Shown here piece after piece: positions 1,351-47,715 of a stretch of 64,000 bases of DNA. Below the pieces are notes generated by a model. It was not told where the DNA came from and ran no database searches. It worked only from the letters and a program-made list of their open reading frames with translations. The position numbers and the translations under genes were made by a program. This DNA comes from Roseovarius aestuarii (lineage in GTDB: Bacteria > Pseudomonadota > Alphaproteobacteria > Rhodobacterales > Rhodobacteraceae). The DNA is taken from the NCBI RefSeq assembly GCF_019966515.1, contig NZ_JAIMIB010000001.1:496001-560000 (forward strand). The letters run 5' to 3'. The first letter of the stretch is position 1. Each line of letters begins with the position of its first letter.

Positions 1351-1553
1351 GATATCTCTCCGCCATTCTGCCTGCGGCGCCAAAATTGCGCTTCCGGTTT
1401 GCTGCGAGCCTACGCACAAGCCGTTTTCCTAGCAACCCCCACACGATACATATAAACGAAAATACCGCCAGGGTTGACGCATGCCGCGCTGTCCGGCACC
1501 GTGCATTTGGTGGGAAACTGCCGACTGAAACCGGCTTAGCGGGAGCTGTCCTT
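1351..1553. promoter_or_regulatory. Divergent intergenic region at the head of the eCIS genes
   Basis: This 203-base gap lies between the TTG start of the leftward gene and the TTG start of the lipoprotein gene, so promoters for both directions are expected here. It carries both ribosome-binding sites: GGAGAG for the leftward gene (1356-1361) and GGGAG for the rightward gene (1541-1545). I could not pick out a convincing -35/-10 pair. Confidence 0.35.
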
Positions 1554-2480
1554 TTGGCGCGAAACTCAGTTGTAAAAGCAAGCACGGTCTGCGGGGTTTT
1601 GATTATGCTCGCAGGATGCGGAGTGGTGAAAAAGGTGCAGGCGATCCCGATGGTTGAACGGCTGGGTTTGGGAGAAGACATACCTTGCGACATTGACCTT
1701 TACGAGCAGCGCCGCATGGCCGGTTCCTTCCTGCAAAGCCCTGTCGGCACGCCGGGCGGTGCCTTGCAATATGTCACCGGCAAACCCTCAAAGGCACCGC
1801 TGCCGCGTAAGCTGGTGTTGGAGGAAAGCAAGATCAAGCGCCTGTCCCCTCAGGAGCAGGATGGCGAAGCAGTCCTCAAAGGCTCGAAAAAGGCAACCGC
1901 CGAGCCGATTGCAGGGCTGGGCGAAAAGGATGTGCTGCCGCAGGCCTATCAGCTCAGCTACCGGGCGGTGAAGGTAGATTATAAGGGGCCACTGGTGGTC
2001 GGACTTAGCCCGACTGCCCAGGAAATCCCGCAATCGGGCCAGGCCGCGATGTCCGGGCCGGTCAAAATCAGCTTCACCAGCACCGACGCAGACGGGGTCA
2101 CCTCCACGACCGAGGCCACCGGCACGTTCAGACTGCTGATCGGCTATGGCACCGGGCGCGCGGCCTTCTCGGCCTCGGATTTCACTGTCGACAGCGGCCC
2201 TGATCTGCCTTTCGCCAAACTCTCGTGGTCGCGTCTGGGTATCTGCGCGCCGCGCATCGTCAGCAGCGGTCAGGGCGGGACCAGTTTCACCTCTGCCGAC
2301 GGCGGGCGCGTGGCCTTGATCGACCCCGGCACCGACCCGGCTGCAACTATGGCATTCGAAAGCAGTCAGTTCGCGGCAAGCGAGCGTCCCGGCCCCCCGG
2401 GGTCGGTCGGCGGTGTCTTTGCCATTCAAGGCAACGCGGCAAGCGTCATGGGAGTATTTTTATCAAAAGACTCTCCCTAA
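1554..2480 (+). CDS. Putative lipoprotein of the eCIS locus
   Basis: Translation from the TTG at 1554 gives 308 residues. It is preferred over upstream in-frame ATGs because GGGAG sits 8 bases before it, and the N-terminus then becomes a lipoprotein signal: basic residues, a hydrophobic run and a lipobox ending LAGC, with the lipidated Cys near residue 22. The mature part is a soluble, Gly/Ser/Thr-rich domain of likely beta structure. I recognise no family. It precedes the baseplate gene on the same strand by 159 bases, so membership in the injection-system locus is likely but unproven. If exported and lipidated it would sit in the cell envelope, which is unusual for a device built in the cytoplasm. 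Confidence 0.6.
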   Translation: MARNSVVKASTVCGVLIMLAGCGVVKKVQAIPMVERLGLGEDIPCDIDLYEQRRMAGSFLQSPVGTPGGALQYVTGKPSKAPLPRKLVLEESKIKRLSPQEQDGEAVLKGSKKATAEPIAGLGEKDVLPQAYQLSYRAVKVDYKGPLVVGLSPTAQEIPQSGQAAMSGPVKISFTSTDADGVTSTTEATGTFRLLIGYGTGRAAFSASDFTVDSGPDLPFAKLSWSRLGICAPRIVSSGQGGTSFTSADGGRVALIDPGTDPAATMAFESSQFAASERPGPPGSVGGVFAIQGNAASVMGVFLSKDSP

Positions 2481-2547
2481 ACTTGTTTCTTCTCTTGCCC
2501 TGAAGATGACGTTGGGTAACTATCCCCTGGGACGTAAGGACATTTCA

Positions 2548-2643
2548 GTGAACCAGTTAACGAGTCTTCCTTGGCCAATCGGGAGATATGATCGAACGCC
2601 TTGTGGCTTTGGGCAAGGTACTGATTTGAAGAGGGATATTTGA
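2548..2643 (+). CDS. Possible 31-residue small protein or leader peptide coupled to the baseplate gene
   Basis: A GTG at 2548 is preceded by AAGGA (2536-2540) at a 7-base spacing and opens a 31-codon frame. Its TGA (2641-2643) overlaps the TTG start (2640-2642) of the next gene, the same overlap style as the other junctions of this operon. The codon use differs from its neighbours (TTA, AGA, AGG, AGT). The peptide is polar with one Cys and no recognisable motif. It may be a true small gene, a translational-coupling leader or chance. Confidence 0.25.
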   Translation: MNQLTSLPWPIGRYDRTPCGFGQGTDLKRDI

Positions 2644-5600
2644 TTTACGACTGGTCCGAAATACGCGTGACGCTAGAAGCCGCCGCGGATCGTCGCCTGC
2701 CGGCGCCGCTGATATCAGATGCCCCTCTGATCCGGCCTGCGTCTCTGGCTGAAAATCTAGCCGAGCTATTGGCACACGCACCGCAACCATGGCGCGACAC
2801 ACTGCGCCGCGAACCTGCAGTCGTCGCGGCACAGATCGCTGCCTTTCGGCTTGATGACGCGATCATGGGCTACGATCTGGTGGCCGAAGCGGGGCCGGAA
2901 GCGCTTGTCAGACATATCGCCGATCTTGCCCGCCGCCTCGATGACTGGCTTAACCGGGTCCGGACCCAGCTGCCCGGCCCGTTCGCTGAAACGCTTGACG
3001 CCCTTGATCGCGGGATGAACCTGCATAAACGCGTTGCTGACATGGCCGAGGCCACGGTGTCGTCCATGACCACCTTGTTCAGAAACTCGCTTTCGGCCGA
3101 CGCCGTTGCAGGCCCGCGCGATGCGGTTGCACAGGCCAAATACGTCAGGTCCTGGCTCAGCGCCGCACACCGGCAGCTGATCCATGCCATCGGATCGCTG
3201 CAACCAACAGCCCGCCTGGTGTTCGAAGAACGGTTAAAGGCAGGCACGATCGAACCCGCTGTCGGTCTCCTGTTAGCCGAATTGGCCGCGGCGGGCGTCG
3301 TGGATGCGCGGCTCAACCTCTTCACGCGACGTCATACCGGGTTTTACTATCGTGATATACTGGGCCAGAAACCGGCAGAGGCTGCTACCGAACATGTGCT
3401 GCTGCATCTCCCCCCCTCCACGGCAAGGCGGTATCTGCCCAAAGGGACCTCATTAACCGCGCGCGGTGAAGATGGGCAGACTGAACGGTTCTGCACCGAA
3501 AGCCGCCTTCCCCTGACAAGCGCCCGCGTGACGGACACAGCCGGCATCACATACGAAACCGACCCTCAGGTATCGCTCTACACCACCTTGGGCGCAATCA
3601 CCGGCATTCGCGCCGGGATCGACCGTTCGGAAGATCTGCCGCTGGGCCGGGGCGTGTTCGTCGCCCCGAACGACACGCCGGTGGATATGGGGCTCGATAT
3701 CGCCTCGGACATGTTTCGGCTGCGCGAAGGCCGCCGTCAGATCGAGCTGCGGCTTAACATGCGCCGCGCTACGCCACTGCGGGCGACATCAATACCAAAC
3801 GCGACACCTCCGGGGCCCGAGCCCGATCCGCATATCCGGCTTGAATTGCAAAGCGACCCCGAACTGGTCCTTGCCTGCGGATTTGCCAGCCTCGAAGAAG
3901 GGATCGACCGGATTGTCGAGGAGGTAGAACAACTCGCCCGGGCGCGCGGTTGTTCCCCCTCCCTGTCGCTGATCTACGAGGCAATGGTGCGCAAGACGCT
4001 CGGCGTCGAACCGTTGCGCCAGCTTCTGGGCCGGATATTCACCCTCGGGCTGGTCGAAGGCACCCCGTGGCCCACAGGCGAGTACTGGGCTGTCCTGAAA
4101 CAACGGATCGACGCCAGCCAAGCGGCGCTGTCGGGTCAACGGCTGGTTACTCCGAATACATCCGAGATGTTCTGGCACCGCTCCGCCGAGGGAAATTCCA
4201 TCCTGGGTGAGGCGTTCGCCCTGAATGGCGACGGAACGTTTATTTTCAGCCCTGACGATGTGTTCCAGAAATTCCTGTCAGACGCTTTCAAGGTCACGCT
4301 CAGCACCGCTGACGGACCCGTCCGCCCTGATGTTCTGCAGGTACTGCCGAACGGACCCGACGCACCTGCAGGCTTTACGCTGCGCATGACACTGGAACCC
4401 GATGTGGCGCCGATCATGCCGCCGGCGGAAACGCCCGAGACCGCCCCGGTCATGTCACTGCGCTATGCGTCCGGCGCCCGGATATGCCCCGCAAGCTTTT
4501 TCGAACGCTACGAACTTGAAAATATCGCGATGCGGGTAAAGGCCACCGACCTCAAGACCTTTGCCGCATTTTCCGACGATGGCCCGGTCGCCCCGGACCA
4601 GAGCTTTCTGCCCTTCACCAGTCGGCCCACTGATGGATCGACCCTGACCATCGCCGCGCCGGAAATGGCGCTGAAACCTGTCAGCAGCGTCTCGCTTGCG
4701 GTGACATGGGCCGATTTGCCGGGAACGTCGGAAGGGTTTGACGAGCACTACGCGCAGTATCCCGAGGGAACCGAGATTCCATCACCGGAATTGCAGATGG
4801 ACTATCTTTCCGGCGGCAAATGGAAACGCCTGCGCGACGCTGCGACACCGCTGGCCGACCGCGATGCTGCCACCCGGACACTCCTGTCTGATTGGCGGCG
4901 CACCGGGAATTTCGACAGCCCGGCAATCCCGGATGACAGCATCGCAGCGATGACGCTCCCAAAGTCGCGCGGTAACGTACGCGGCGGGGCCCTGCGACTG
5001 ACCCTGGCGGGCACGGCGAACGGCTTTGGGCGAAACCTCTACCCACGGGCGCTGGCGCAGGCGATGCGCCCCAGCCTTATCCCGATGCTGAAACGCCCCT
5101 TGCCGAAGCCACCATACCTGCCAAGGATCGCCAGTTTGCGACTTGGCTACGAAGCCCGGGCGACGATCGAGCTGTCCGCCCCCGACAGCGCCCGCCCCCG
5201 GGATCGGCTTTACCAGATCACACCCTTCGCGCGCGCGAGGCTGTTTCCCGAGCGGACCGGGCGCCGGGCAACCCTGTTTCCGCCCCGGCTGGGCTATGCG
5301 TCGCTTTTCATCAAGATCACCGGGCCGGATGCCAACAAGCGCCTCAGCCTGCTGTTTGATATTGCCGATAGCGGCCATTCGCGGATCGCCCGACAGCAGG
5401 TACCTTTGGTCTGGCATTACCTGACCGCCGATGGCTGGACGGCGTTACCCCAGACCGAGATCTCATCGGATACGACCGATGGTTTACTGCGTTCGGGCAC
5501 AATCAATGTGGATCTGCCCGACGACGCAGGCAGCAACACGGCAATTATGCCCGGTGGCGGCCTGTGGCTTGCCGTTTCAGCGACGCGCCGGGGCTTTGAC

Positions 5601-6551
5601 ACCCATCCAGTGCTGTCTCGTGTCAAAACCAATGGGATTTGGGTTGAAGCTGTCGATGCCGGCGGTCCAAACCGTGGTGGCACACGTGTCTGGAGTTTCG
5701 ATCCCGGCGTGCCGGGCACCGGCAAACCGGTCGAGGTTGCGCGCCGTACCCCTCCGCGCCCGCCCGAGGACAATCCCGCCTTTCGTGCCCGCGTGTCCGA
5801 ACGTCTGCGCCATCGCAAACGCGCAGTCACGCCATGGGATATCGAGCGGCTCGTGCTTGAGGAATTCCCCGAGGTCTGGCGGGTCAAATGCCTGCCGCAT
5901 CTCACCCACGACACCGCCGCGCCCTGCCCCGGCGCGGCCACGGTGGTTGCGGTCCGCCGCCCGCCATTATTCGACGACACCGCCAGCGACGTATCGCAGG
6001 AGCTTTTGTTCGATGTGGGTAAGCTGGAACGGATCAGCGGCTACATCAAACGTCACGCACCGCCTTTTGCGCGCTTCGAGGTCGTCAACCCCGGCTTCGA
6101 CCGGCTGCATGTCAGGGCCAAGGTCCGGTTCGCCGAATATAGTGACGACGGCGCGCTGGCCTTTCGGCTCAGGGCCTATCTGGCGCATCAGCTCTCGGTT
6201 TGGACCGCACCCGAGGATATTTCACGTTTCGGCTGGTCGCTGAATGTGTCGCTGCTGCGCGCCCGGATCAGCGCGCTGAGTTATATCGAAGACGTCACCG
6301 ATTTCTCAGTGCTGCACTTCACCTCTGACGATGAGGGTGCCTATCGGCTTGCGGACACCGCCCAAAGCGATGGCCGCGGGCCACATGGGACGGTAATACA
6401 ACCCTCGCGCCCCTGGGCGCTTGCCCTTTCCGCCCAGAACCATGCCATCACGGCGACTGACTACAAACGGAACATCCCCCCCTCGCAAAGCGGCATCGGA
6501 CGGCTGAAGATCGGTGACATGCTGGTCGTGGGACAGGAGGCGAAGCTGTGA
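2640..6551 (+). CDS. Large eCIS baseplate protein (baseplate J/Afp11-Afp12-like)
   Basis: This 1,303-residue protein is the first large structural gene of the operon. An in-frame stop at 2622 leaves the TTG at 2640 as the first usable start, with AGGGA just upstream. The C-terminal third has the layout of phage and eCIS baseplate wedge proteins. It contains a stretch that begins with an Arg-rich FRARVSERLRHRKRAVT segment followed by WDIERLVLEEFPEVWRVKC, and ends in a conserved alpha/beta segment. An N-terminal part near residues 230-320 also resembles wedge proteins. Such proteins join the tube and spike hub to the sheath. It is longer than typical homologues, with extra sequence in the middle. 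It overlaps the next gene by 4 bases. Whether it corresponds to Afp11 or Afp12 cannot be decided by eye. Confidence 0.75.
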   Translation: MIYDWSEIRVTLEAAADRRLPAPLISDAPLIRPASLAENLAELLAHAPQPWRDTLRREPAVVAAQIAAFRLDDAIMGYDLVAEAGPEALVRHIADLARRLDDWLNRVRTQLPGPFAETLDALDRGMNLHKRVADMAEATVSSMTTLFRNSLSADAVAGPRDAVAQAKYVRSWLSAAHRQLIHAIGSLQPTARLVFEERLKAGTIEPAVGLLLAELAAAGVVDARLNLFTRRHTGFYYRDILGQKPAEAATEHVLLHLPPSTARRYLPKGTSLTARGEDGQTERFCTESRLPLTSARVTDTAGITYETDPQVSLYTTLGAITGIRAGIDRSEDLPLGRGVFVAPNDTPVDMGLDIASDMFRLREGRRQIELRLNMRRATPLRATSIPNATPPGPEPDPHIRLELQSDPELVLACGFASLEEGIDRIVEEVEQLARARGCSPSLSLIYEAMVRKTLGVEPLRQLLGRIFTLGLVEGTPWPTGEYWAVLKQRIDASQAALSGQRLVTPNTSEMFWHRSAEGNSILGEAFALNGDGTFIFSPDDVFQKFLSDAFKVTLSTADGPVRPDVLQVLPNGPDAPAGFTLRMTLEPDVAPIMPPAETPETAPVMSLRYASGARICPASFFERYELENIAMRVKATDLKTFAAFSDDGPVAPDQSFLPFTSRPTDGSTLTIAAPEMALKPVSSVSLAVTWADLPGTSEGFDEHYAQYPEGTEIPSPELQMDYLSGGKWKRLRDAATPLADRDAATRTLLSDWRRTGNFDSPAIPDDSIAAMTLPKSRGNVRGGALRLTLAGTANGFGRNLYPRALAQAMRPSLIPMLKRPLPKPPYLPRIASLRLGYEARATIELSAPDSARPRDRLYQITPFARARLFPERTGRRATLFPPRLGYASLFIKITGPDANKRLSLLFDIADSGHSRIARQQVPLVWHYLTADGWTALPQTEISSDTTDGLLRSGTINVDLPDDAGSNTAIMPGGGLWLAVSATRRGFDTHPVLSRVKTNGIWVEAVDAGGPNRGGTRVWSFDPGVPGTGKPVEVARRTPPRPPEDNPAFRARVSERLRHRKRAVTPWDIERLVLEEFPEVWRVKCLPHLTHDTAAPCPGAATVVAVRRPPLFDDTASDVSQELLFDVGKLERISGYIKRHAPPFARFEVVNPGFDRLHVRAKVRFAEYSDDGALAFRLRAYLAHQLSVWTAPEDISRFGWSLNVSLLRARISALSYIEDVTDFSVLHFTSDDEGAYRLADTAQSDGRGPHGTVIQPSRPWALALSAQNHAITATDYKRNIPPSQSGIGRLKIGDMLVVGQEAKL

Positions 6552-7423
6552 CGAAACAGGACAGAACCACGCTCAAATCGTTTTTCAGGGATGGTGCACT
6601 GCCCTCTGCCGAACGTTACGGTGATCTGATCGACAGCACCGTCAACCAAATTGAAGACGGTTTTTCGAAAACCCCCGCAGACGGGCTCCGGCTGTCTTCG
6701 GTCGGCGAATCGCGGGCGGTGATGAGCCTTTATCAGGGCCTGTCCACGCCTTACCCGTCCTGGGTGCTGGAACATGGTGAAGCCGCTGGCAGCCTGCATT
6801 TCCGGCAGGGACTTGGACTTGCCGGGAACGATCTCGACAGCGACGCTCCCGACACCGACCCCGAGGACGGTGGGAAAAAACCGGCCCCCGCACCGTCGGG
6901 ACTGGCGCTGTCACGGGATGGTCGCTTGGGCGTGCATAGCGATGCGCCGGAATGGCGGCTTGACGTCGGCGGCGTGGCCCGCATGCAGGGCCGGATCGGC
7001 CAGCCGACCGAAGGCTTGGAACAGGTTCCCGCCGATGGCAGCTGGCATGACGTGACCCGGTCGATGACCGGCTGTCAAGCGTTCGAGGTCATGGCCGGTG
7101 CCGGCGGCGAAGTGAATTACGGCCGCTATTCGATGGTTCATGCCATAGCGATGAACGCCTATCACCCGCGCAACCCGATCCTGAACTGGCTCTTTGGCCG
7201 GCGACGCATCCGCAGCCAGACAGCGATGTATGGCAGCTATGCCGACCGGATCCGCCTGCGTTGGGTTGCCGCCAGTGAACGACACCACTTCAAGCTTCAG
7301 ATGCGCACCAACGCCAATTTCGGCGAGGGCAAGACGATCCGCTATTACATGACGCGGCTGTGGTTCGACCCTGCGATGTCCGGCTCGCGCGGCGGCCCGG
7401 GGCGCGAAGGGGGCCTTTTGTGA
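6548..7423 (+). CDS. eCIS fibre-like structural protein
   Basis: This 291-residue protein starts at a GTG overlapping the previous stop (GTGA), with AGGAGG 7 bases upstream. After a charged N-terminus there is a Pro/Asp-rich linker around residues 95-120. Then comes a segment of the type GRLGVHSDAPEWRLDVGG, which resembles the G-x-G-x-x-x-x-P-x-x-x-LDV-x-G motif common in tail-fibre and adhesin proteins. The remainder looks beta-rich and aromatic. Its place between two baseplate genes matches where fibre or wedge accessory genes lie in other eCIS loci. The family is unknown to me, and the fibre idea rests on that motif and position. Confidence 0.5.
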   Translation: MTKQDRTTLKSFFRDGALPSAERYGDLIDSTVNQIEDGFSKTPADGLRLSSVGESRAVMSLYQGLSTPYPSWVLEHGEAAGSLHFRQGLGLAGNDLDSDAPDTDPEDGGKKPAPAPSGLALSRDGRLGVHSDAPEWRLDVGGVARMQGRIGQPTEGLEQVPADGSWHDVTRSMTGCQAFEVMAGAGGEVNYGRYSMVHAIAMNAYHPRNPILNWLFGRRRIRSQTAMYGSYADRIRLRWVAASERHHFKLQMRTNANFGEGKTIRYYMTRLWFDPAMSGSRGGPGREGGLL

Positions 7424-9552
7424 CCTCGGACCTGCCACCGCCTCTCAGCTTCGACGCGCTGCGTGACGAAGCCATCCCTGCTGCGCAACGCGCTTCGGGC
7501 GATATCTGGACAGACTATAATATCCACGACCCGGGCGTCACGCTGCTGGAACAGACCTGCTTTGCCTTAAGCGAGATCGCCTATCGCAGCGATCATGCGG
7601 TGCGGGATCTGCTCACGCAGCCCGATGGCGGTTTCGATCCCGACGCCTTGGCTCTGTCCGGTCCCCGGCAGGTTTTGCCCGGCCGCCCGGTTACCGCGCA
7701 TGATCTTGCCGCCGGATTGTCAGCGTCAAAGGCAGTTGAGCGGGTTTTCGTCCACCGGGCCGCCGCGCGTGGCCTGCTCGACATCTCAGTAATCCCCGGT
7801 CCCGGCGTTACGGATGAAGCGGCGATTGCCACCGTGCGAGACACGTTCGCGCAGATCCGCATGGTCGGCACCGATGCCAACCAGATCACCGTAATAAAAC
7901 GCCATATGCTGGCCCTGTCAGGCCGGATCGAGATCAATGTCTTTGCCAAGCCCGATGCGATTGCCGCTGAGATTTACCATCGCATCAACCTAGCGCTACA
8001 CGGGTTCGAAGATGACGGAATTGGCGGGCGCACGGGTGCGACGCGCGACGATGTATTCAATGACCCTGCGGCAATCTGGGCACGTGTTCTCGCCGAACCG
8101 GGCAATCCCACCCAGATAGACCTGGCGCTGGCCGCGCTGCAACGGATAGACGGTGTCGAAAGCTTGCAGGACCTTGCGCTTACGTCTGTCGAAACCGGCC
8201 TGAGCGTTCCCGGCAACACACGCCACGGCGTGGTCTATGAGGTCAGATTGCCCACCAGCGATCAAGATACCTCGCTTGAGCTGTCTCTCAATGGCCATCC
8301 CGTCCCGCTTGATCCGGACGCGATCGCCGAGGAATATGGCCGCGTCGTGGCGGCGCACATCGCACGGCAGGGTAACCAGCTTGATCTGCATGATTTTGAC
8401 GTGCTCGCACCGGGCCGCCCTCGCCACGCACCCACGACCATTGATGCCGATGCAACCCTTCCTGCCATCTATCGCTATCGCGGCCTTGATACGGCGAAAC
8501 CCTACCGCCAAACCATCAACGCACATCTGGGCGCGATTGCTACGCCGCTCTCCCATCTACCCAACCACTACGCTGCGCTGCGCACTATAGACTGGTCCAA
8601 CCCGGCCGATATCCGGCGTCGGATCGAGATGCTCGATTATCTGATTGCGTTACAGGGCGAGGAAATGCCCGCGACATCGCAATCGGGTGTCAACCACTAC
8701 CGAAACCCCGCGGCGCGGGCCCGCTGGCAGGTCGCGTGGCGCGAAAGCTATCTAAAACAGCTTCCCCGGATGAACTTCTATCAGGGAACGGCCCATCCGG
8801 AATTCGGGGTTCTGGCACGACTGGCGCATCTCACCGACCTCAACGCTGGTGATGCTGAGACGTTGGCGGATGCCGGGATTGCGTTGGACCTTGCCGCAAC
8901 CTTACCCGACCCTACGGTCGAACGCCGTTCGCTCCTGCTGCCTTACCGTCCCACAGATATGCTGCTTGAACGTGACGCCGACGCTGAACCGCTTCCTGCA
9001 CATAAGCTGCGCAAGCTCTCACCCTGGCTCAGCGAGACGGGGACAACCCCTGATTTGTATCGCCGCGCCGCCGATCCCGACGCTTACCTGCTGGCGCGCG
9101 ACCGGAACAGCGATTGGCAATTGCTGCTTGAACCCTACGAGGACGCAGATAAGTTTTACGCCTGCGGCAGCGGTCGGGACCGGGAGGAAATGGTGGTGCT
9201 CGGCAACCGCCTCTGCAACAGTTGGCAAACGCTCAACCGCGACTGCGAGACAATCTCACTTATCGAAGATGTCGAACTGCGCAGCGGCATGACCGATTTC
9301 CGCCATGCCTCAGCAACCGCGCTTCTGACCGGCTGGACGGCCCGCACCACACGACGTGCCTTCCGTAGCTATGTCGAGGATATGATCCTGCGGGTTTCCC
9401 CGGCCCACGTAAATATCCGCCCGCTTTGGCTATCGCAGGAAGCGGGCCAGGTACTCGCACCACTGGTGCAGGCATGGCGCGCGGGCGAGGAAGGCGCTGG
9501 CGGGGCGCTCAGGGCGGCGATGACCGCCATCCACGACGAGACCGCATCATGA
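7420..9552 (+). CDS. eCIS baseplate protein (baseplate J-like, second paralogue)
   Basis: Translation from the GTG at 7420 gives 710 residues; this start overlaps the previous stop by 4 bases and follows GAAGGGGG. An upstream in-frame ATG at 7360 would overlap the preceding gene by 64 bases and is not favoured. Residues about 28-50 carry IWTDYNIHDPGVTLLEQ, the DPGxTLLE signature at the N-terminus of baseplate-assembly proteins of contractile systems. An AYRSDH segment that fits the family follows. The protein should form part of the wedge around the spike. It overlaps the tape-measure gene by 4 bases (ATGA). Confidence 0.8.
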   Translation: MTSDLPPPLSFDALRDEAIPAAQRASGDIWTDYNIHDPGVTLLEQTCFALSEIAYRSDHAVRDLLTQPDGGFDPDALALSGPRQVLPGRPVTAHDLAAGLSASKAVERVFVHRAAARGLLDISVIPGPGVTDEAAIATVRDTFAQIRMVGTDANQITVIKRHMLALSGRIEINVFAKPDAIAAEIYHRINLALHGFEDDGIGGRTGATRDDVFNDPAAIWARVLAEPGNPTQIDLALAALQRIDGVESLQDLALTSVETGLSVPGNTRHGVVYEVRLPTSDQDTSLELSLNGHPVPLDPDAIAEEYGRVVAAHIARQGNQLDLHDFDVLAPGRPRHAPTTIDADATLPAIYRYRGLDTAKPYRQTINAHLGAIATPLSHLPNHYAALRTIDWSNPADIRRRIEMLDYLIALQGEEMPATSQSGVNHYRNPAARARWQVAWRESYLKQLPRMNFYQGTAHPEFGVLARLAHLTDLNAGDAETLADAGIALDLAATLPDPTVERRSLLLPYRPTDMLLERDADAEPLPAHKLRKLSPWLSETGTTPDLYRRAADPDAYLLARDRNSDWQLLLEPYEDADKFYACGSGRDREEMVVLGNRLCNSWQTLNRDCETISLIEDVELRSGMTDFRHASATALLTGWTARTTRRAFRSYVEDMILRVSPAHVNIRPLWLSQEAGQVLAPLVQAWRAGEEGAGGALRAAMTAIHDETAS

Positions 9553-12500
9553 CATCGCAACCGCAACCCCACACACGCGACCACGACCCTGAAGTGAACC
9601 GTATCGGCGAGTTGGAATTTCGGTTCGATGTCAGTGATGCTTCGCGTCAACTGGGTGCACCGGAAAAGCTCCTGATGGCGGTACGCGCCGAGCTTCTTGA
9701 GGTCATCGACAACACCCTGGGCGAAGCCACACGCGACAAGGCCGATATCCGTCTGGCGCATCTCGATATCAACCTTGGCGATATCCCGGACCCGCCAGAC
9801 TGGCAACAGGTACGCACCACGCTCCGGCAGCGCCTGCTGGCCGAACTGACCCCATATCTCTACCCTAAGCCAGCATCAGACGATCCCACCATGCCAAACA
9901 AGCGCGCATGGGGATCAGGCGACGCCACCCATCTACCGGCTACGATCAAGGAGACCGCAGCGGACCGGGCCGAGAGTCCGCCCCAGAGCGCAGGGCCGGA
10001 AGCGTCGGATTCAGATCATGACGTGATGGGTGCCGATACACCCGAACCCGAATTCAAGAGCATACGTCGAAAGCCCGTAGATGATGCGATGGGGGTATAT
10101 GACGTCACTGAGTCAAGCATGCCGGATCGGGAATCAACCAAGCGCCCAACCTCGCGTGGTCATGCTTTACGCCAAAACCCCGGACAAAATCAGACAAGGT
10201 CTGCGGACCATGACCAGCACGCGGCGCGGCGGTTCTTGCCATTGCTGCCCGAACAGCCGGCATCCTCGCTGCATGCCAAGCCTCTGTCAGACGACAAGAG
10301 CGCCATCCAGGCGGCGGGCGGGATCCCCGAAATGCTGCGCCGCCTGACGAGCGATGCGCCGGATACCAGGGTGCTTGGCATTCTGATGACAGATCTCCGC
10401 TGGCGATACCGGTATGCCCCGGCACGATTGCGCGAAGAGCTTGCGGCTCTTTCGCAGCACGATCTTGCGCACCTATCGACGGCGCTGGATGCTGTGACCA
10501 ACCCGGAATGGGCGCAGCATGCCAGTTTGGAGGCGTCATCAATCAGCGACGCCCCTACCCTGAAAACTGACCTGATCAATCGGATTGAACGCGCCCTTGA
10601 AGAGACAGCCTCGTTTGCGTCGGAAACGCCGCAGATCACCGAATTGACCGCAGCCCTGCATGGGGTTTTTCCGGATATTGGACAGTCGCGACCCGATCCG
10701 GAACGGCTTAGAAATATTGCAGAACGCGCGCTACACCCTCTGACGGGCGTAGCCCCCTCAACACAAACGGTGCCAAATAAATCGGTACCGAAAGACACTC
10801 ACGACAGGCCAAAAACAAGCCCTTTGAGCAAATCCGATCTGACGCAGCTGACCAGCGCTGAGCTACGCGAATTGATTGCCGAACTCTTGCCGGAAAATGC
10901 GACAGAACTATCCGGTGCCATTGATCAACTAGACACTACGTCCGTCGATCCTGCCGAGGCGCTTCGTGTCGTGGCTCTGGCTCTTCTGGAAAGCAGGCCG
11001 GTCGATCTTGAACTTGCGCGCCGCGCCGTACGCACCCACGACGATACGGCCATGGCAGCCATTGTAGCGCTGCTGCAGGCGCTGGATACTCCAGCACCCG
11101 AAATCACCGCATTCGTCCATGAACGGTCTTCGCAAGTATCACGCAGGCCCAACGAAACCGACGCGGGCGCACCGTCCGAAGATCAGACAAACCTACCGCC
11201 GTCAGCGCAACATAGTTTGTCGCCGACAAGTCCAATGGTCGACGATCCCGCCCCCTCCAGCCTCGATGTCGTATCCCCGGCGGACGCGGCACCACAACAC
11301 CGGAAAGCCAGCGCCACATCGCAACGCGCTCAGGACGAGCCCCACACTGTTTACCCTGACGAAATTGAAGACGATCGCAGAAAAGCTCGGCCTCCCCTGC
11401 CGGTTCAACCGGTTTTCACCGGGAATCGCGCCAAGTCCCAGGTCGGCGCACCAGAACCACCGCTGAATGAGGCGGCCGAGACTGACAGCGGCCCAAGCGA
11501 CACGTTGGTACCAGATCCGGCGGCAGATCACACCGAGACATCTGCGGATGACCGCGCCGTTTCTCCAGACTGGATTGAGCCAACCACGCAGCGAGGCGAC
11601 AACAACCGCAAACGCGACCGCCAGTGGGTGCGAGGGAATGAAATCAGCGATGATCAATCAATAGAATGGAAGCATGCCGGTTCGGGCGAAAGCAAAGCCA
11701 CGCCGATGGCGGCGCGCTCGGTCGGCGCGCCCGGTCCGACACCCGAGAGGCAGACCACCGATCTTCCGCCAACCATGCAGCCCAAGGATGCCGCATCCAA
11801 AACCGACGAGCCGCAAAGCACTCCGGGCGATATGGCACCTTCTGGCAAACCCGATGCTGCCAAAGACGAACCGGTTAAAGACACCGATCCGACAACAGGC
11901 TCGCACCTGTTACCGAAGGCACCGCACCCGCGCGAAACGACACGGACGCAAGACACTGCATCACGGCCAAGCGAGACAGAACCCGGTTCAGAAGAGCCGG
12001 AAGTTAAATCGCATAAAACCGTTGATCGCTCCGATAAAGCTGGTGATGCCTCGGCGGATGGCGCCGGAGAGGCCGCGGAGACACTGCGGTCAAAGGAGGC
12101 CTTGCGCCACAGACAAGCACCGAAGGAAACATCCGGCACCGCGTCTCAGACCAACGCTGGCGCGCGCAATCCGGAGGCCACCGATCATCAAATTACGGAT
12201 CAGGATACTGCGTCCGTGACGCCCTCCCCAACCAACGGGCCGGGTGAAAATACTGAGGCGCCCTCGACCGCTAGGGCCGAACAAACGTCAGACACGTATC
12301 CGCCCGACGCGAGCCTAGGCCAACAAGCGCCCGAAGGCACTGTGCACCCATCTGGTCTCAGCCCTGAGGATCAACCCGAAAGCGCTCGCGCTGCGCCGCT
12401 TCGAGCCGCCGACACACAAGGCACCGAAATGCGACTTGGCGCATTGTTCGACGCGGCAACCCCTGAGGCGCCACGGCTCCGTGAGATGCTGGATCTGATC

Positions 12501-13322
12501 TGGTCGACATTGTCAGATAACGCTGAATACAACAGGCGTGACCGGTCGCGGTACTGGCAGGCCGCTCTGGTGGCGGTCCTTTCGGCGCCTCAGGACCGTT
12601 CGGCACAAGAGCATGCGGTCGCCGCCTTCCTCAGCGTGGCCGAACCTGATGATACGTCCCGGCACAACCTGTTGCGGGTGCTGCGCGCCCGTCTTGGATA
12701 CGCTCAGCCCGGAAGCGATCCGGTCTTGCGCCGCGAAACCTGTTCCGTTCTGGAAAACCTTCTGAATGGCAAGCGGGATACGTCAACCGCGTCGGCAGAA
12801 CCCGATCCCCACACCAGTTTCAAGACCACTGCACGCGCTGGTTTGGTCATCTTCCACCCTTATCTGCCGATGCTGTTCGACCGAATGGGTTTGTTGACGC
12901 CGCAAAAACACATCCGGCCCGAACAATTGTCACGCGCCGCAGCGGCACTGGCAGCGCTGGCCGACGACACACCGCATCAGATGATGCCTGATCCGCTTGA
13001 GCGCCTACTGCTGGCGATGCCCGACACGGCAGAACTCGCACCCGAGAGATTGCCGGACAGTGATCTCAGCCTCATTGACAGCCTGATGCGCAGCGTCCTT
13101 GCGCAGTGGCCGCGTCTTGGTCAAACCTCCCCGGCAGGTCTGCGAGAGGCCTTCATCCGCCGCACCGGCCTGTTACAGACCGATGGAGAGGCGCCGCGGC
13201 TTCTGGTCGATGAAGGCCCCTATGACATGTTGCTTGACGGGCTGCGTTGGGCGCTGTCGCCTGTCGCTCTGCCCTGGATGGCCGTCCCTCTGAACGTGAT
13301 ATGGAGGCAGCAAGATGACTGA
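9549..13322 (+). CDS. Contractile injection system tape-measure-family protein
   Basis: Translation from the ATG at 9549, which overlaps the previous stop, gives 1,257 residues. The N-terminal about 100 residues match the CIS tape-measure family: a strand-helix unit containing IRLAHLDINLGDIPDPPDWQ, where the LDINLG element is typical. The C-terminal about 160 residues (from about 1095) contain GLVIFHPYLPMLFDRMGLL and end in PWMAVPLNVIW, both typical of this family. Between about residues 440 and 970 the chain is low-complexity, rich in Pro, Thr, Ser, Asp, Glu and Lys, and almost certainly disordered. In eCIS this family sets or helps set tube length and is encoded next to the AAA ATPase, as here. 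Confidence 0.8.
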   Translation: MTSQPQPHTRDHDPEVNRIGELEFRFDVSDASRQLGAPEKLLMAVRAELLEVIDNTLGEATRDKADIRLAHLDINLGDIPDPPDWQQVRTTLRQRLLAELTPYLYPKPASDDPTMPNKRAWGSGDATHLPATIKETAADRAESPPQSAGPEASDSDHDVMGADTPEPEFKSIRRKPVDDAMGVYDVTESSMPDRESTKRPTSRGHALRQNPGQNQTRSADHDQHAARRFLPLLPEQPASSLHAKPLSDDKSAIQAAGGIPEMLRRLTSDAPDTRVLGILMTDLRWRYRYAPARLREELAALSQHDLAHLSTALDAVTNPEWAQHASLEASSISDAPTLKTDLINRIERALEETASFASETPQITELTAALHGVFPDIGQSRPDPERLRNIAERALHPLTGVAPSTQTVPNKSVPKDTHDRPKTSPLSKSDLTQLTSAELRELIAELLPENATELSGAIDQLDTTSVDPAEALRVVALALLESRPVDLELARRAVRTHDDTAMAAIVALLQALDTPAPEITAFVHERSSQVSRRPNETDAGAPSEDQTNLPPSAQHSLSPTSPMVDDPAPSSLDVVSPADAAPQHRKASATSQRAQDEPHTVYPDEIEDDRRKARPPLPVQPVFTGNRAKSQVGAPEPPLNEAAETDSGPSDTLVPDPAADHTETSADDRAVSPDWIEPTTQRGDNNRKRDRQWVRGNEISDDQSIEWKHAGSGESKATPMAARSVGAPGPTPERQTTDLPPTMQPKDAASKTDEPQSTPGDMAPSGKPDAAKDEPVKDTDPTTGSHLLPKAPHPRETTRTQDTASRPSETEPGSEEPEVKSHKTVDRSDKAGDASADGAGEAAETLRSKEALRHRQAPKETSGTASQTNAGARNPEATDHQITDQDTASVTPSPTNGPGENTEAPSTARAEQTSDTYPPDASLGQQAPEGTVHPSGLSPEDQPESARAAPLRAADTQGTEMRLGALFDAATPEAPRLREMLDLIWSTLSDNAEYNRRDRSRYWQAALVAVLSAPQDRSAQEHAVAAFLSVAEPDDTSRHNLLRVLRARLGYAQPGSDPVLRRETCSVLENLLNGKRDTSTASAEPDPHTSFKTTARAGLVIFHPYLPMLFDRMGLLTPQKHIRPEQLSRAAAALAALADDTPHQMMPDPLERLLLAMPDTAELAPERLPDSDLSLIDSLMRSVLAQWPRLGQTSPAGLREAFIRRTGLLQTDGEAPRLLVDEGPYDMLLDGLRWALSPVALPWMAVPLNVIWRQQDD

Positions 13323-14688
13323 TCCCGCCGTGGCCCTGCCGCATCCGGATGACAGCGTCCACGCAAAGGCATTGCAGGTCGAGCTGTCTTGGCTGTCCGA
13401 GGTGATCACCGCCCGGCTGACCCATTTCTTCGACGGCACCGACACGTACTTCATAGCGCCGCCGCCACAAGATTTGCCCGAAAGCGCGGCGCTGACACGG
13501 CTGGTCTCTGATGCGCCGCTGGATGCATCGGCCCGGCTGGTGTTGGCGCTGGCCCTTGCCCCGCAGATCGGGCCTGCGGCACTCGATCCGTTCTTCGTCA
13601 AGAACTCGGCCATTGACCGGGTTTTTTCGGAATTCGGCGCAGCCCGGGCCGATGGTGCCGGATTTGTACCCAGTGCCGTGACGGCGCTTTTCCTTCTGGG
13701 CGGTGCGGACACGGCAGCACGGATCGAAGCCATGGCAATATTTGCCCCAGATCATCCGCTGCGACAGCAAGCGGGGCTTACCATCGGAAGAGCAGGTGAC
13801 CCGGCGCAAACCGGTCATGACGCCGTGATGGCCGGCCCCCTAATCCTGCCGCCGCACCGCGTATTAACGCTTTGTGCCGGGTGCCCGCCCCGGCCGGATT
13901 TTTCACCGCAATTCCCTGCCAAACGGTTGGAAACGGCACTTGACTGGCAGGATCTGGTTTTGCCTTCCGGATTGAAACACGGCATCGAACATATCATCGC
14001 CTGGTATGAACATCGCAACCTGATCCGCGATAGCTGGGGGCTGGGTCGTCGCGTCGGGCCCGGATTCAAGGCGCTGTTTCATGGCCCCCCCGGCACCGGC
14101 AAGACCCTGACAGCGGCCATGCTGGGCAAACGCACCGGGCTTGATGTCTACCGTATTGATTTGTCGATGGTGGTATCGAAATATATCGGTGAAACCGAAA
14201 AGAACCTCAGCCATGTTTTTGATATGGCAGAAGAAAACGACTGGATTCTGTTCTTCGATGAGGCCGACGCGCTATTCGGCACCCGCACAGCGACGACCAG
14301 TTCGAACGATCGTTACGCCAATCAGGAGGTGTCATACCTGTTGCAGCGGATCGAGGATTGCCCGGGGCTGGTTATCCTAGCCACGAACCTGCGAAACAAT
14401 ATCGACGATGCGTTTTTCCGGCGGTTCCAGATGTCGATGGGCTTTACCCGGCCCGATGCCAACCTGAGACGCAAGCTCTGGCAAAACATCATTGAGCGCG
14501 TGCCGCTGTCTGAAGGTGTCGACATCGACGCGTTCGCGGAAGAACACGAACTGTCCGGTGGCGCGATCACCAATGTTGTTCATCACGCTACGATCAGCGC
14601 CTTGCGCCGTGGCGTCAAAGTTGTCGGCGCGCATGATCTGCAACAGGCCATCGCCGTCGAATTGCGAAAAGAAGGACGTACCGCATGA
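13315..14688 (+). CDS. eCIS AAA+ ATPase (Afp15-like)
   Basis: This 457-residue protein starts at the ATG at 13315, 7 bases after GGAGG, inside the end of the tape-measure gene (8-base overlap). The N-terminal half is a helical domain. The C-terminal half is a classical AAA+ module: Walker A GPPGTGKT near residues 257-264, Walker B ILFFDEADALFG near 311-322, and arginine-finger and sensor regions (ATNLRNNIDDAFFRRF) near 360-375. Single AAA+ ATPases of this kind are a conserved eCIS component acting in assembly, and they follow the tape-measure gene in known loci. It overlaps the next gene by 4 bases. Confidence 0.85.
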   Translation: MTDPAVALPHPDDSVHAKALQVELSWLSEVITARLTHFFDGTDTYFIAPPPQDLPESAALTRLVSDAPLDASARLVLALALAPQIGPAALDPFFVKNSAIDRVFSEFGAARADGAGFVPSAVTALFLLGGADTAARIEAMAIFAPDHPLRQQAGLTIGRAGDPAQTGHDAVMAGPLILPPHRVLTLCAGCPPRPDFSPQFPAKRLETALDWQDLVLPSGLKHGIEHIIAWYEHRNLIRDSWGLGRRVGPGFKALFHGPPGTGKTLTAAMLGKRTGLDVYRIDLSMVVSKYIGETEKNLSHVFDMAEENDWILFFDEADALFGTRTATTSSNDRYANQEVSYLLQRIEDCPGLVILATNLRNNIDDAFFRRFQMSMGFTRPDANLRRKLWQNIIERVPLSEGVDIDAFAEEHELSGGAITNVVHHATISALRRGVKVVGAHDLQQAIAVELRKEGRTA

Positions 14689-17600
14689 CCCGCCCCGCCC
14701 CGGTCTTTGCCCAACTGATGATCGCCCTCGTCGTCTGGATATGCTGCGCTTTCACCGCCTTGGCCGCGCGATCTGCCGAACACTGCAATGCCCTGTTGAC
14801 CGATCCGGGCGTGACCGGATCACCGAAAGATATCGCGTTGATCCAATTGGGGGCGCGCACCAAGCTGCAGGACAAAAGCGGCCTGCTTCAGGATGGACGG
14901 ATCGGGGCCTATACAAGGCAAGCGCTGGTGCGGCTTTGCGGGCAGGTGCCGCTGCCCACTGGGACCAGCCCGGTCGATGGTACGCTCAATCTGGCCATCG
15001 ACTACGGCACCATCGCGACAGGCGATCCAGACTGGGTTGGCAAAGCTACCTCCACCGCCCTCAAGGCGCGGATGACCGCATCTCCGCAGAACGGTGTGAA
15101 TGCGGTTACGCTCCGCCTTGCCGGACCACCACAACTTACCCTGGAAACGCTGGAGAACACCCTTGCCCAAGGCGCCGGCTGCCAGGGTTTCAGCACCGAC
15201 GATCTGTCCGAACCCGCGCTGGCCGGGCTGGACGCACTGATTGCGGCGGGTCCTGACGGCTGGTCGAAGCCGGAAGCTCTCTGCACAGCGCTGGCAACAA
15301 AATCCGACACGGCTGATAACACGAGCTTCCAACACACGCTCGAATCCTATGCCGCCATCGAAGTTGCACTGCCGGGCGCGTTGGTCCAACTTCTGGCACC
15401 GGATTTCTCGGCCTGGTTGGTCGAGGAGCAGAACACTCGCGTACCACGGCTGACCGGTTCCGACGCAGCAGTTATCGCCCTGATTGCAGAATACCGCGCC
15501 GCAGATCGCCCCGCCGCACCACGCGATTATTCCGGTCTTTTCAAAAAGTTACCCACCTCCTGCGCGGAACCGAAAAGCACCAATGTGCTGGAATATTCGG
15601 CCTTCACCCAAAGCGATCTCGACAATCTGGTGCAGCCGGTGGATGTGGCCGGTGTCCTGTCCGGCCTCGCCGACAAAACCTTTGACAGCGCCGATGCGCT
15701 GATGGTCGCAATTACCACAGCGCTCGACGGGCAGGTGTCGCAATGCACGCTGGATCAGATCGGCCTTGCGGTTTTCAGCTCCGAAGACCTTGGTCTGCGC
15801 TATGCGCTGGATCCGGAAGCCACCGCCAACCTCGCGCTGGTTGACGGGTTCACCGAAAGCGCCGATGCCGTCACGCCGCTGATCGGTCTTTCGGCGCAGA
15901 CGCGCGGCGCGCTTCTCTCTGGTGTGCGCATTGCAATTCTCAAAGACGCGCAGACAGCGATCAACGCCGAGATTGCCCTGGCTGCCGAGACCCTAGCCGC
16001 CGCGTCCGAAGAGCTGGCCTCGGCCCTCGATACCAGGCCGCAGGATGTCCCGGAATTCCCCGAGCTTCCGGTGGCAACGCCGATTGGCGTGACCGAAGCC
16101 ACGGACAGCGCCGTAACCGCCACTGTAAAGGACGCGGACTTTCAGAAAGCCCTGCTTGATGCCAATTACGCCCCCGCCCCCAACACCGAGGTGCTGAAGG
16201 GCGATGTGCGCCGCATCCTTGCGCCTATTGCAGCGGACAAGGTGGACACGATCGTATCGGGCGCCATGTCACAAATTCAGAAAGTCGTGGATCGCAGCTG
16301 GCAACTGACCCCAGATCTGAACGGTGCCATTCTGTCTGCCCCAGCGGTCAGCGCCGCCCAAAGCATGGATCTGACGCCTGAAAACGCCGATGCGCTAAAG
16401 GCCCTCGTGGGTGTCGAATACCCGAATGAAAAGCTACTGGCCTCTGCCGTGGCAGCAGTTTCGCCAGCACCACCGGATGCCGTCGCAGCGCAGGCCCGGC
16501 TTGCCGGGTTCCACACCGTGGCGGACCCAACCGCGCCGCGCAGCGCGAGTGATCTTGCCTTGCCGGATTGCCGTTGCACAGCGGCGCGGCGCGAAAATGC
16601 CGAAATCTATGCCTTCTACCCCTTCTGGCTCTTGCCCAAACTGGCACTGCCCGGCGATGATCCGGCCTCGAATACCGATGAGCCGCCCGACAGTGATGAG
16701 GAAGGCACCGACAAAAAGGCCGCCGCGCCGGAACCGCTTCATCAGATTGACTTCGGGCTGGTCAGCCGCATCGCTTTTTACGGCCTCGAATTCGCCTATG
16801 GCAATCCCGAGGCCGCCGCCGATGACAGGATCATCCGGCTAGCCAACCAGGCCCGCTGGATCGAATCGCGTCGGAATTTCGTCAATGCTGCCCATCTGCA
16901 TCGCGCCAAGGCCGACCTTGCCATAACGCTTACCGGCTGGGACCAATGGAGCAGCTCCGAAATCGAAAACGTTGCCGACAAGATCGTCGATCTGTCCGCG
17001 CCGTTCAGACGTGTGAAAGACAAGGGGTTCAGAGGCTTCATCGCCGCGTATCCGACCATATTCGACGCGCCTCGTCCTGATGGAGTCACGCTGATCTTTC
17101 GCGGTTATACCGGCGTCGACGGCGCAGGGGAATCGATCCTAAGGCTTCGCGCGATGGTCGCCCGCGTCGCCGCGAAGCTCAAAGAACGCGGGCAATCTGT
17201 CAATCTCGGCCTCGATCTTGAGCTGGCCGGCGTCGCGGCTGACAGCGGATTGATGAGCGACTTGCGCTCCATTCTCGTCGACGTCGGTCAGCTACCAACA
17301 CCCAACGCCGCTGGCGGGACCGCTGCTACGGAAGCGAGCTCAGGCAACTCCGACAGCCCGCCACCCGTCGACAAAATCCTCGTCTTTCTGGAACGCCCAA
17401 CCACCAACACCAAAAAGCTGATGCGCGCCCGGATGGAACGCGGTGATTACAAAGGGGTCGAACGCACCGAGGTTCTGCGCCGCATCCTGCCGGTCGTCCC
17501 GCCGGGAGGGCACCGTTACGTGCTGCAAGATTCACGTGCGGTAGACGCCAGTACCGCAACGACCGAAGAGTTCAGTCAGTTCTACGATGACATCGTCTAT

Positions 17601-18050
17601 TTTCAGGACAATTTCGCCGGTATTGGATTTTGGCCCGCCCCGGACCCGAGCAGCCCGGACATGCCGCAGATGCAGGCCATCATGGACAATCTTCTGATGC
17701 TGCCCGGTATTCCTGCGGTGCTTGCGCCCTTTACCGAAGATATCACCAAAGCCTGCAACTGGATTTGCCCCAACCGCGCCTATCTGGGCACGGCAGCCGC
17801 GCTGCTCGCGATACTGACTGCACTGATCGTCTGGCGCTCTTTCTACAGCGGGTTGGCCGATACGATTGCCTTCCGGATGGGTACTGTCTGGATCGGGACA
17901 GGCACGGTAGCAGCCATTCTGGCGGCGCTCACCCTGTGCGACCCTGCGGCACTGATCGCGCCTATTGCGCTGGCCACGCTGGTCATAGGCCTGCTGCTGC
18001 TTCTGGGATTCAACGGCTATCAGCGTGCTCGCAACGGACCAAAGCCGTGA
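14685..18050 (+). CDS. Exported, membrane-anchored protein with GH18-like domain, last gene of the eCIS operon
   Basis: This 1,121-residue protein starts at an ATG overlapping the ATPase stop, with GAAGGA 8 bases upstream. Residues 1-28 form a signal peptide ending ALAARSA. The next about 600 residues are Ala-rich and mostly helical. Residues about 640-870 resemble a glycoside hydrolase 18 barrel: IYAFYPFWLL, then SRIAFYGLEF, then DGVTLIFRG (799-807), then LGLDLEL near 841. In active GH18 enzymes the third element reads DGxxxDxE; here the acidic residues are missing, so it is probably inactive. Three hydrophobic segments near 1033-1052, 1065-1085 and 1089-1109 end the protein. The translational coupling argues for a real part of the system, perhaps an envelope anchor or cell-wall docking factor. 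That role is inference. Confidence 0.6.
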   Translation: MTRPAPVFAQLMIALVVWICCAFTALAARSAEHCNALLTDPGVTGSPKDIALIQLGARTKLQDKSGLLQDGRIGAYTRQALVRLCGQVPLPTGTSPVDGTLNLAIDYGTIATGDPDWVGKATSTALKARMTASPQNGVNAVTLRLAGPPQLTLETLENTLAQGAGCQGFSTDDLSEPALAGLDALIAAGPDGWSKPEALCTALATKSDTADNTSFQHTLESYAAIEVALPGALVQLLAPDFSAWLVEEQNTRVPRLTGSDAAVIALIAEYRAADRPAAPRDYSGLFKKLPTSCAEPKSTNVLEYSAFTQSDLDNLVQPVDVAGVLSGLADKTFDSADALMVAITTALDGQVSQCTLDQIGLAVFSSEDLGLRYALDPEATANLALVDGFTESADAVTPLIGLSAQTRGALLSGVRIAILKDAQTAINAEIALAAETLAAASEELASALDTRPQDVPEFPELPVATPIGVTEATDSAVTATVKDADFQKALLDANYAPAPNTEVLKGDVRRILAPIAADKVDTIVSGAMSQIQKVVDRSWQLTPDLNGAILSAPAVSAAQSMDLTPENADALKALVGVEYPNEKLLASAVAAVSPAPPDAVAAQARLAGFHTVADPTAPRSASDLALPDCRCTAARRENAEIYAFYPFWLLPKLALPGDDPASNTDEPPDSDEEGTDKKAAAPEPLHQIDFGLVSRIAFYGLEFAYGNPEAAADDRIIRLANQARWIESRRNFVNAAHLHRAKADLAITLTGWDQWSSSEIENVADKIVDLSAPFRRVKDKGFRGFIAAYPTIFDAPRPDGVTLIFRGYTGVDGAGESILRLRAMVARVAAKLKERGQSVNLGLDLELAGVAADSGLMSDLRSILVDVGQLPTPNAAGGTAATEASSGNSDSPPPVDKILVFLERPTTNTKKLMRARMERGDYKGVERTEVLRRILPVVPPGGHRYVLQDSRAVDASTATTEEFSQFYDDIVYFQDNFAGIGFWPAPDPSSPDMPQMQAIMDNLLMLPGIPAVLAPFTEDITKACNWICPNRAYLGTAAALLAILTALIVWRSFYSGLADTIAFRMGTVWIGTGTVAAILAALTLCDPAALIAPIALATLVIGLLLLLGFNGYQRARNGPKP

Positions 18051-18062
18051 CGTGAGTACTCA

Positions 18063-18923: not shown

Positions 18924-18983
18924 CGCCAGACTTCCCTTTTTCGGTTTTGTAGCCGGCACGGGGTGACAAAGGCAGATACAAAA

Positions 18984-19009: not shown

Positions 19010-19038
19010 CCATAACACCCCATACACCGAGATCTAAC

Positions 19039-32533: not shown

Positions 32534-32534
32534 A

Positions 32535-47710: not shown

Positions 47711-47715
47711 GCGAT

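Follow-up and report, generated by a model that had tools for sequence, protein, structure and literature searches.

The 64,000-nucleotide stretch of Roseovarius aestuarii DNA analysed here (contig NZ_JAIMIB010000001.1, positions 496,001 to 560,000; the window) holds one half of a complete extracellular contractile injection system (eCIS), the other half of which lies mainly beyond its left end. Seven plus-strand genes, p1-p7 (window 1554-18050), and an opposite-strand block, m1-m14 (numbered in order of transcription), are arranged in this genome as two divergent operons, and the core parts found in both halves make the system complete. The machine is of a known kind, and p7 already has a homologue of solved structure. 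Its mode of action is what we infer: an envelope-tethered eCIS with an amino-acid-gated trigger, to which we assign a probability of roughly 0.45. The candidate trigger is m4, which encodes a protein resembling ionotropic glutamate receptors (iGluRs).

Coordinates and overlaps of the p genes were taken from the window's list of open reading frames (ORFs) and from base-level reading. The operon begins with p1 (1554..2480), a predicted lipoprotein of 308 amino acids (aa) whose TTG start at 1554 is a choice among starts (the longest ORF begins at 1326). It is followed, without overlap, by p2 (2640..6551), an Afp11/Cis11-type baseplate protein; p3 (6548..7423), a well-conserved protein of 291 aa; p4 (7420..9552), an Afp12/Cis12-type baseplate protein; p5 (9549..13322), the tape-measure protein; p6 (13315..14688), an AAA+ ATPase in the Afp15 position; and p7 (14685..18050), a predicted membrane protein of 1121 aa. 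An earlier interpretation made from the letters of the window (the sequence-only reading) had described overlaps of 4 or 8 bases from 2640 onward, and these were read as 4 (p2/p3, GTGA), 4 (p3/p4, GTGA), 4 (p4/p5, ATGA), 8 (p5/p6) and 4 (p6/p7, ATGA), the p3/p4 and p4/p5 values depending on the chosen starts 7420 and 9549 (longest-ORF starts lie farther upstream, at 7360 and 9426).

That baseplate, tape-measure and AAA+ genes stand here in eCIS order, as the same reading had it, was borne out by the gene order of related loci (see below) and by profile matches. In Pfam, p5 matched PF19268 (CIS_TMP) at 4e-43 (longest-ORF version, 9426-13322) and p6 matched PF00004 at 3.7e-27; the position of the latter after the tape measure is conserved among related loci. 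No Pfam family reached its cut-off for p2 or p4. Both matched solved baseplate proteins in the PDB, p2 most closely 9rce_A (5.4e-85), 7aeb_G (3.3e-51) and All3317 (2.4e-44), also Pvc11 and Afp11, and p4, with its N-terminal 100 residues as the best-matching stretch, 9rce_B SalCis12 (1.7e-32), All3315 (1.9e-17), Algo12 (1.7e-15) and Afp12 (7.5e-11), also Pvc12. In NCBIfam, p2 matched TIGR02243 at 5.5e-7, under the cut-off of that family. From its sequence, p3 is a probable Cis13-like short tail fibre: its identity to three relatives is 71, 58 and 54% (the 54% to one of them being partial), and the profile matches to bd2133 (E = 0.016) and All3316 (E = 0.54, residues 1-41 on 1-41) are weak and not significant alone, FtsZ chains appearing in the same list at E 0.3-0.9. 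A defence role for p6 was considered and dismissed, the PADLOC matches to IetA and TRIP13 being read as generic AAA+ similarity. The tRNA scan of the window and the tandem-repeat scan of 1-20000 came back empty, and promoter and terminator scans stayed close to shuffle level.

The lumen and sheath genes, which the sequence-only reading had placed outside the window, were found on the minus strand to its left; sheath, tube and spike genes, expected by that reading within about 20 kb, lie 5.2-11.0 kb from the window start. A sheath profile gave a single match genome-wide; it fell short of the curated cut-off and lies on this contig, about 7 kb beyond the window's left end. Genes for the sheath, two tubes, CIS_tube, spike, PAAR, gp25, Pvc16 cap and eCIS_core together span 1.7-11.8 kb left of the window. 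In order of transcription on the minus strand (coordinates in locus L003), and leaving m1 and m2 for later, these are m3 (eCIS_core, 7.6e-11), m4 (SBP_bac_3, 1.4e-7), m5 (Pvc16_N cap, 1.5e-26), m6 (no family and no informative match in any scan), m7 (L003:6586-8766; sheath of 726 aa, Phage_sheath_1C at 5.3e-11, over its cut-off, and Phage_sheath_1 under its own), the tubes m8 and m9 (L003:6107-6565 and 5646-6101; Phage_T4_gp19, 9.5e-49 and 5.4e-39), m10 (72 aa), m11 (CIS_tube, 6.2e-41), m12 (L003:2970-4754; spike, Phage_base_V 2.8e-18), m13 (PAAR tip, 6.2e-26) and m14 (GPW_gp25, 1.9e-27). Genes overlap at m3/m4 (4 bases), m5/m6 (4) and m9/m10 (38); the remaining gaps measure 1-81 bases, except for the 241 bases between m4 and m5. 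The sheath m7 carries a cadherin-like insert (Cadherin_3, 2.3e-13), a possible decoration of the particle surface; the sheath frame of genome G130 has 526 aa.

To place this arrangement, related loci were collected with a p3 profile (four rows) run on a genome collection, a query that favours this clade by design (n = 34). Twenty-six are Rhodobacteraceae-type records, and one each comes from Deltaproteobacteria, Burkholderiaceae, Reinekea, Geminicoccaceae, Roseateles, Gammaproteobacteria, Proteobacteria and SAR324. The genes for sheath, tubes, m11, spike, PAAR and gp25, then the p genes, follow one another on one strand in 25 of the 34 (m10 and p1 were not detected in every one of these), and this conserved order excludes chance. 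Four loci (L023, L025, L037 and L046) are cut upstream of the p genes; five (L036, L038, L042, L043 and L049) extend upstream of p1 or p2 yet differ in order. In the window's own genome the m block runs the other way from the p block, the p operon having apparently been separated from the sheath-tube-spike operon by inversion; in G130 (same contig as L038) and G146 the two blocks converge. The description of the p genes as the distal half of an operon thus holds for 25 of the 34 related loci but not here, where the halves are separate divergent operons. Homologues of p1 were found in 23 of the 34 loci (three misses are cut before p1, and the eight non-Rhodobacteraceae loci gave no match) and homologues of p7 in 25; five loci (L020, L027, L031, L039 and L042) end before the place of p7, and it was not shown in L043, L051, L052 and L053.

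Two side observations concern these loci. L042 and L043 are two contigs of one Rhodobacteraceae metagenome genome, and both show the same eCIS start; the match to p3 in L043 breaks off at residue 232, and p4 follows after another 1.2 kb, be it by duplication, insertion or an assembly effect. Four Roseobacter eCIS loci (L026, L030, L035 and L040) sit on contigs of 76-87 kb, two of which (L026 and L040) read as circular by gene order. This hints at plasmids, an idea that found no support in PLSDB, where neither m4 (E<=1e-20) nor p7 (E<=1e-10) had a match.

Among solved structures, the sheath is closest to 9r9h_T (7e-171; also 9r9i, 9r9n and 9rce), then to 7adz (7.8e-105), assigned to AlgoCIS via the shared entries 7aeb and 7aef, and to Anabaena All3325 (3.4e-94), with the Pvc and Afp sheaths well behind. 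Entry 9rce is the top solved match for both p2 and p4. By these similarities the machine is an eCIS of the AlgoCIS / tCIS / SalCis clade, the SalCis structures being closest, then AlgoCIS and Anabaena tCIS. SalCis (PDB 9RCE; sheath in 9R9H, 9R9I and 9R9N) differs in its sheath chain of 519 aa, against 726 here, and in the p7 homologue 9r9a_B, which has 864 aa; judging from similarity and neighbouring PDB codes, 9R9A probably belongs to the SalCis set. No paper on SalCis or 9R9A was found in the open-licence literature. AlgoCIS, from Algoriphagus machipongonensis, shares with the present system the next-best sheath, the p2 match 7aeb_G and, in Algo12, a relative of p4; DUF4157 proteins are lumen cargo there, according to the available part of PMC8894135, and an eCIS_core gene is present in the cluster here. 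Anabaena tCIS is alike in its sheath, All3317 and All3315, and its All3316 is weakly like the start of p3.

Tail-like parts dominate the cluster, and PHROG tail families match the sheath, the spike and p2, which would also suit a degenerate, functionless phage tail or prophage remnant. We rejected this explanation as very improbable: no capsid, portal or terminase was found among the 23 proteins scanned with Pfam (the right-hand neighbour included) or the nine compared with PHROGs, the rest of the genome being unsearched, the genes are open and conserved in order between genera, and the cluster has the eCIS families CIS_TMP, CIS_tube, Pvc16_N and eCIS_core. The profile search that the sequence-only reading had proposed returned CIS_TMP, tail parts and an ATPase, and no capsid or DNA-packaging family among the scanned cluster proteins.

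The proposal of a trigger centres on m4. Its profile matched, with two ligand-binding halves (S1 and S2) that are split by a membrane part, the structures 2pyy ('Ionotropic glutamate receptor bacterial homologue', 2.1e-22) and Slr1257 (1iit/1ii5, 2e-21), which we take to be GluR0; the top match was the solute-binding protein (SBP) 4zv1 (9.8e-25), as expected from the shared fold. All 18 m4 members examined carry SBP_bac_3, and 16 match Lig_chan-Glu_bd at E<=0.01, the window's m4 standing outside those 16 (alignment A4 omits L067, with one internal stop, and L060, near-identical to L059). An NCBIfam match of m4 to StpK7 was far under its cut-off and was discarded. The protein has a signal-peptide-like hydrophobic start and two further hydrophobic segments. 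In the structure model (predicted local distance difference test score 81), S1 is followed by M1 (residues 151-179), a pore-helix-like element (194-210), M2 (219-255) and S2, so that m4 has, as a predicted topology, the S1-M1-P-M2-S2 layout of iGluRs. A Foldseek search of this model returned a solute-binding protein first, with AMPA and NMDA receptors making up most of the remaining list in alignments of about 400 columns, at root-mean-square deviations of about 8-13 A that leave the relative placement of the parts not fixed.

In the iGluR pocket, an Arg binds the ligand carboxylate and an Asp or Glu the amine. Residues P103, L104, T105, T107, R110, G342, D343 and E370 of m4 are identical in 18 of 18 members; they make up the invariant motifs PLT-T--R (103-110) and GD (342-343), together with E370, and R110 and D343 align with Slr1257. 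The residues of an amino-acid pocket are present by this alignment, and ligand binding is predicted. The K+ filter of such channels is TVGYG; the corresponding region reads TLGLKG in the window's m4 and T-x-G-L-[K/R]-G in 16 of the 18 members, the Geminicoccaceae member and L070 deviating. Compared with GluR0 and other prokaryotic iGluRs, m4 is thus alike in layout, pocket residues, profile and fold matches, and differs in this filter and in its genetic tie to an eCIS. Prokaryotic iGluRs lacking a recognisable K+ filter (Group 2) are described in the part of PMC2950845 at hand. An iGluR-like gene tied to an eCIS lineage was not found described in the open-licence literature (preprints and subscription papers being outside that scope).

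The tie itself was first apparent in 394 genomes of the family: p7 was found in 5, CIS_TMP in 12 and m4 (E<=1e-50) in 4, all four inside both sets. The chance of such overlap is 5e-7 for the CIS_TMP set and 5e-9 for the p7 set, assuming independent genomes, which they are not. At E<=0.001, m4 matches occurred in 47 of the 394, the next best after the four being 1.2e-14. Among 367 genomes of the class, whose eCIS content was not looked up, only the window's own m4 reached 1e-25. In both searches at most four first-look candidates were scored per genome, and absences are not exhaustive. Of 33 named genomes (L043 excluded, as the same genome as L042), which were chosen as eCIS carriers and show linkage rather than absence elsewhere, 25 matched at E<=0.001: 18 at E<=1e-50, a Geminicoccaceae genome at 6e-18 and six weakly; eight had no match. 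Rhodovulum steppense DSM 21153 and Roseobacter cerasinus AI77 are among the named carriers of m4. The family and named samples overlap where G419, G397 and G412 are contigs of G001, G119 and G130.

Gene neighbourhoods were compared for 20 m4 loci, namely the 18 strong ones, the Geminicoccaceae locus and the window. Nineteen of them have an eCIS_core gene in the vicinity of m4, within 0.5 kb in 16, at a distance of 1.2 kb in G405 and G418, and of 3.3 kb in G400, where m1 and m2 intervene; none was found near m4 in G130. On a single stretch, m4 is joined by eCIS structural genes in 17 of the 20, G400 and G414 needing joined contig ends; m4 of G397, G410 and G411 stands outside the eCIS locus read from each genome. 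In the upstream stretch read for the Yoonia loci G395 and G415, neither m4, eCIS_core nor the genes of the block described next were seen. In Roseobacter cerasinus (L119:7011-11280), Pfam identifies a long histidine kinase of 1129 aa and a response regulator of the LuxR type; their genes lie immediately upstream of eCIS_core and m4 and may form a two-component switch of the cluster.

In 15 of the 20 loci, the genes after m4 encode a methyltransferase, an SBP_bac_3 protein that has additional hydrophobic segments, and a second permease-like protein, the permease identity being read by eye; L057 and L058 show the start of this block, L071 is cut, and the window and Geminicoccaceae loci are without it. 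This neighbourhood invites another explanation: an ordinary free eCIS, with p7 and p1 acting in its release or assembly, beside which m4 and the adjoining genes form a linked passenger for solute sensing or uptake that plays no part in the machine. The existence of eCIS loci without m4 points the same way, as does AlgoCIS, which belongs to the same clade and is free-floating as far as the accessible text of PMC8894135 goes. We nevertheless hold it to be somewhat unlikely. A passenger would be expected to occur without an eCIS, whereas strong m4 homologues were found only in eCIS carriers among the family genomes and only in the window's own genome in the class sample; the window's m4 has stayed with eCIS_core and the cap gene despite the rearrangement and the absent transporter-like neighbours, and a diverged m4 stands beside eCIS_core in the Geminicoccaceae eCIS locus too. 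No ATPase gene was seen by eye in the ORF lists of this block in G406, G400, G394 and G001.

The proximity of eCIS_core would also fit m4 as cargo, a pore-former loaded with the eCIS_core protein and inserted into the target membrane: eCIS_core (DUF4157) genes often adjoin toxin genes, in the part of PMC8213781 that was available, and the lumen cargo of AlgoCIS has already been mentioned. This is quite unlikely, given that the signal-peptide-like start and the two hydrophobic segments fit export in the producer and not soluble cargo, that m4 and eCIS_core lie on opposite strands in 5 of the 19 loci (G398, G400, G402, L058 and L071), and that membrane proteins follow m4 in the 15 loci with the block. 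An m4-type gene beside an eCIS suggests, short of proof, that the machine responds to a chemical signal.

Two further proteins may connect the machine to the envelope. The hydrophobic start of p1 carries a lipobox (LAGC, by eye), and p1 matched nothing in Pfam, NCBIfam, PHROG or the PDB. In p7, an N-terminal hydrophobic segment is followed by a peptidoglycan-binding-like motif (by eye), a helical region, a GH18-like barrel (about residues 634-1008) and C-terminal hydrophobic segments (about 1031-1113). The PDB chain 9r9a_B ('Uncharacterized protein') is its homologue: barrel and C-terminal helices match strongly (5.5e-24 and 8e-9), whereas the matches of two N-terminal stretches are weak (0.011 and 1.5). 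The sequence-only reading could not assign the gene at the operon's end; it has indeed no Pfam family but is a conserved cluster member with a GH18-like barrel. The catalytic signature of GH18 is DxxDxDxE. In the predicted barrel of p7 this signature is not intact: DGVTLIFR stands at that place in the window, and in 21 p7 rows the first inner Asp is replaced by Thr (20) or Ile (1), the second is kept as Asp in one, and the final Glu in nine. The motif was placed by eye on the sequence alignment, A5, in which several p7 rows are cut by locus ends. An NCBIfam match of p7 to OlsG was far under its cut-off and was set aside. Open-licence literature that pairs contractile injection with GH18 concerned Pseudoalteromonas symbionts.

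Membrane attachment has precedents in the clade. In the portions of the sources available, tCIS is anchored in thylakoids (PMC8894136), and the type VI secretion system T6SS-iv is attached to the inner membrane (PMC8894135; PMC12998442). Membrane anchoring is the feature that we propose tCIS shares with the present system. The means would differ: tCIS anchors via a transmembrane helix of the fibre Cis13 and an extension of Cis12, whereas in p3 no stretch of 19 residues exceeds the hydropathy threshold, and p4 likewise shows no hydrophobic segment above it. For TssJ, TssL, TssM and ClpV, which mark T6SS subtype i, Pfam scans of the cluster proteins gave no match (other parts of the genome were not searched); p1 and p7 could be analogues. 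For the trigger, the nearest parallel is CisA of Streptomyces coelicolor, a membrane protein encoded with its contractile injection system, with a solute-binding-like extracytoplasmic domain, and required for firing in the cell (PMC12237407, in part). CisA is bitopic, with one transmembrane segment, and m4 has the iGluR layout; the parallel is one of function.

We propose that (i) particles would be assembled in the cytoplasm of the producer; (ii) the baseplate (p3 and p4) would dock them to a station in the cell envelope formed by p7, in the inner membrane and cell wall, and by p1, probably in the outer membrane; (iii) m4 would bind a periplasmic amino acid and then move ions or merely change shape; and (iv) m4 would thereby license firing or release, a role that may be likened to that of the solute-binding-like domain of CisA, on which its authors speculate in the text available (PMC12237407). 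The SBP with membrane segments and the second permease-like protein found in 15 of the 20 loci could form a second sensor, and m1 and the eCIS_core protein m3 are cargo candidates. Taken in all its particulars, that is, with the machine docked by p1 and p7 in the producer's envelope and fired or released when the iGluR relative senses an extracellular amino acid, the scheme is rather unlikely.

Several observations weigh against a tethered, amino-acid-gated machine. With weak matches in six and none in eight of the 33 eCIS genomes, 14 in all, the machine as such can do without m4; the family and class searches were shallow, and in five loci eCIS_core and m4 do not share a strand. The window lacks the block that follows m4 elsewhere, and the methyltransferase of that block has no place in the model. 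As TVGYG occurs in 0 of 18 m4 members, the K+ filter is not intact, and m4 might not conduct K+, or at all. For p7, peptidoglycan binding was assigned from a motif picked out by eye, no Pfam family matched, and the final Glu retained in nine of 21 rows may point to remnant activity in some relatives. Finally, in the available parts of the respective papers, AlgoCIS has never been seen membrane-anchored in its producer (PMC8894135), and target binding is given as the trigger of its firing (PMC13314943).

The m block begins with m1 (L003:12879-15419, minus strand; window part 1..1419, extending to window position -1121), an 846-codon frame with an uncertain start (TTG at 1419, first ATG at 1287). 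It had no Pfam or NCBIfam match near any cut-off, and its leader carries LQ and VVQR motifs (by eye). Next to it, m2 (L003:12346-12876, minus strand; 176 aa) is YbjN-like at a non-significant 0.12. Both have homologues in G400 (41% and 39% identity), that of m1 near the eCIS_core gene, and together they resemble a cargo/chaperone pair. Farther right in the window, a 982-aa repeat protein stands by two ABC transporter genes and an HlyD-like gene (25660-33863), reading by eye as a type I secreted adhesin with its exporter, and the genes at 41574-51121 read, likewise by eye, as a Tad/Flp pilus cluster.

For released eCIS, a trigger by target binding has been described (PMC13314943), and firing or exit inside the producer is mostly open, with CisA as the one membrane trigger candidate (PMC12237407), as far as the accessible portions of these sources go. 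With a receptor-channel gene travelling with one eCIS lineage, and with two conserved envelope proteins, the question of an in-producer trigger becomes testable by gene removal in marine bacteria that can be cultured. If the proposal is true, prokaryotic relatives of glutamate receptors would gain a concrete role.

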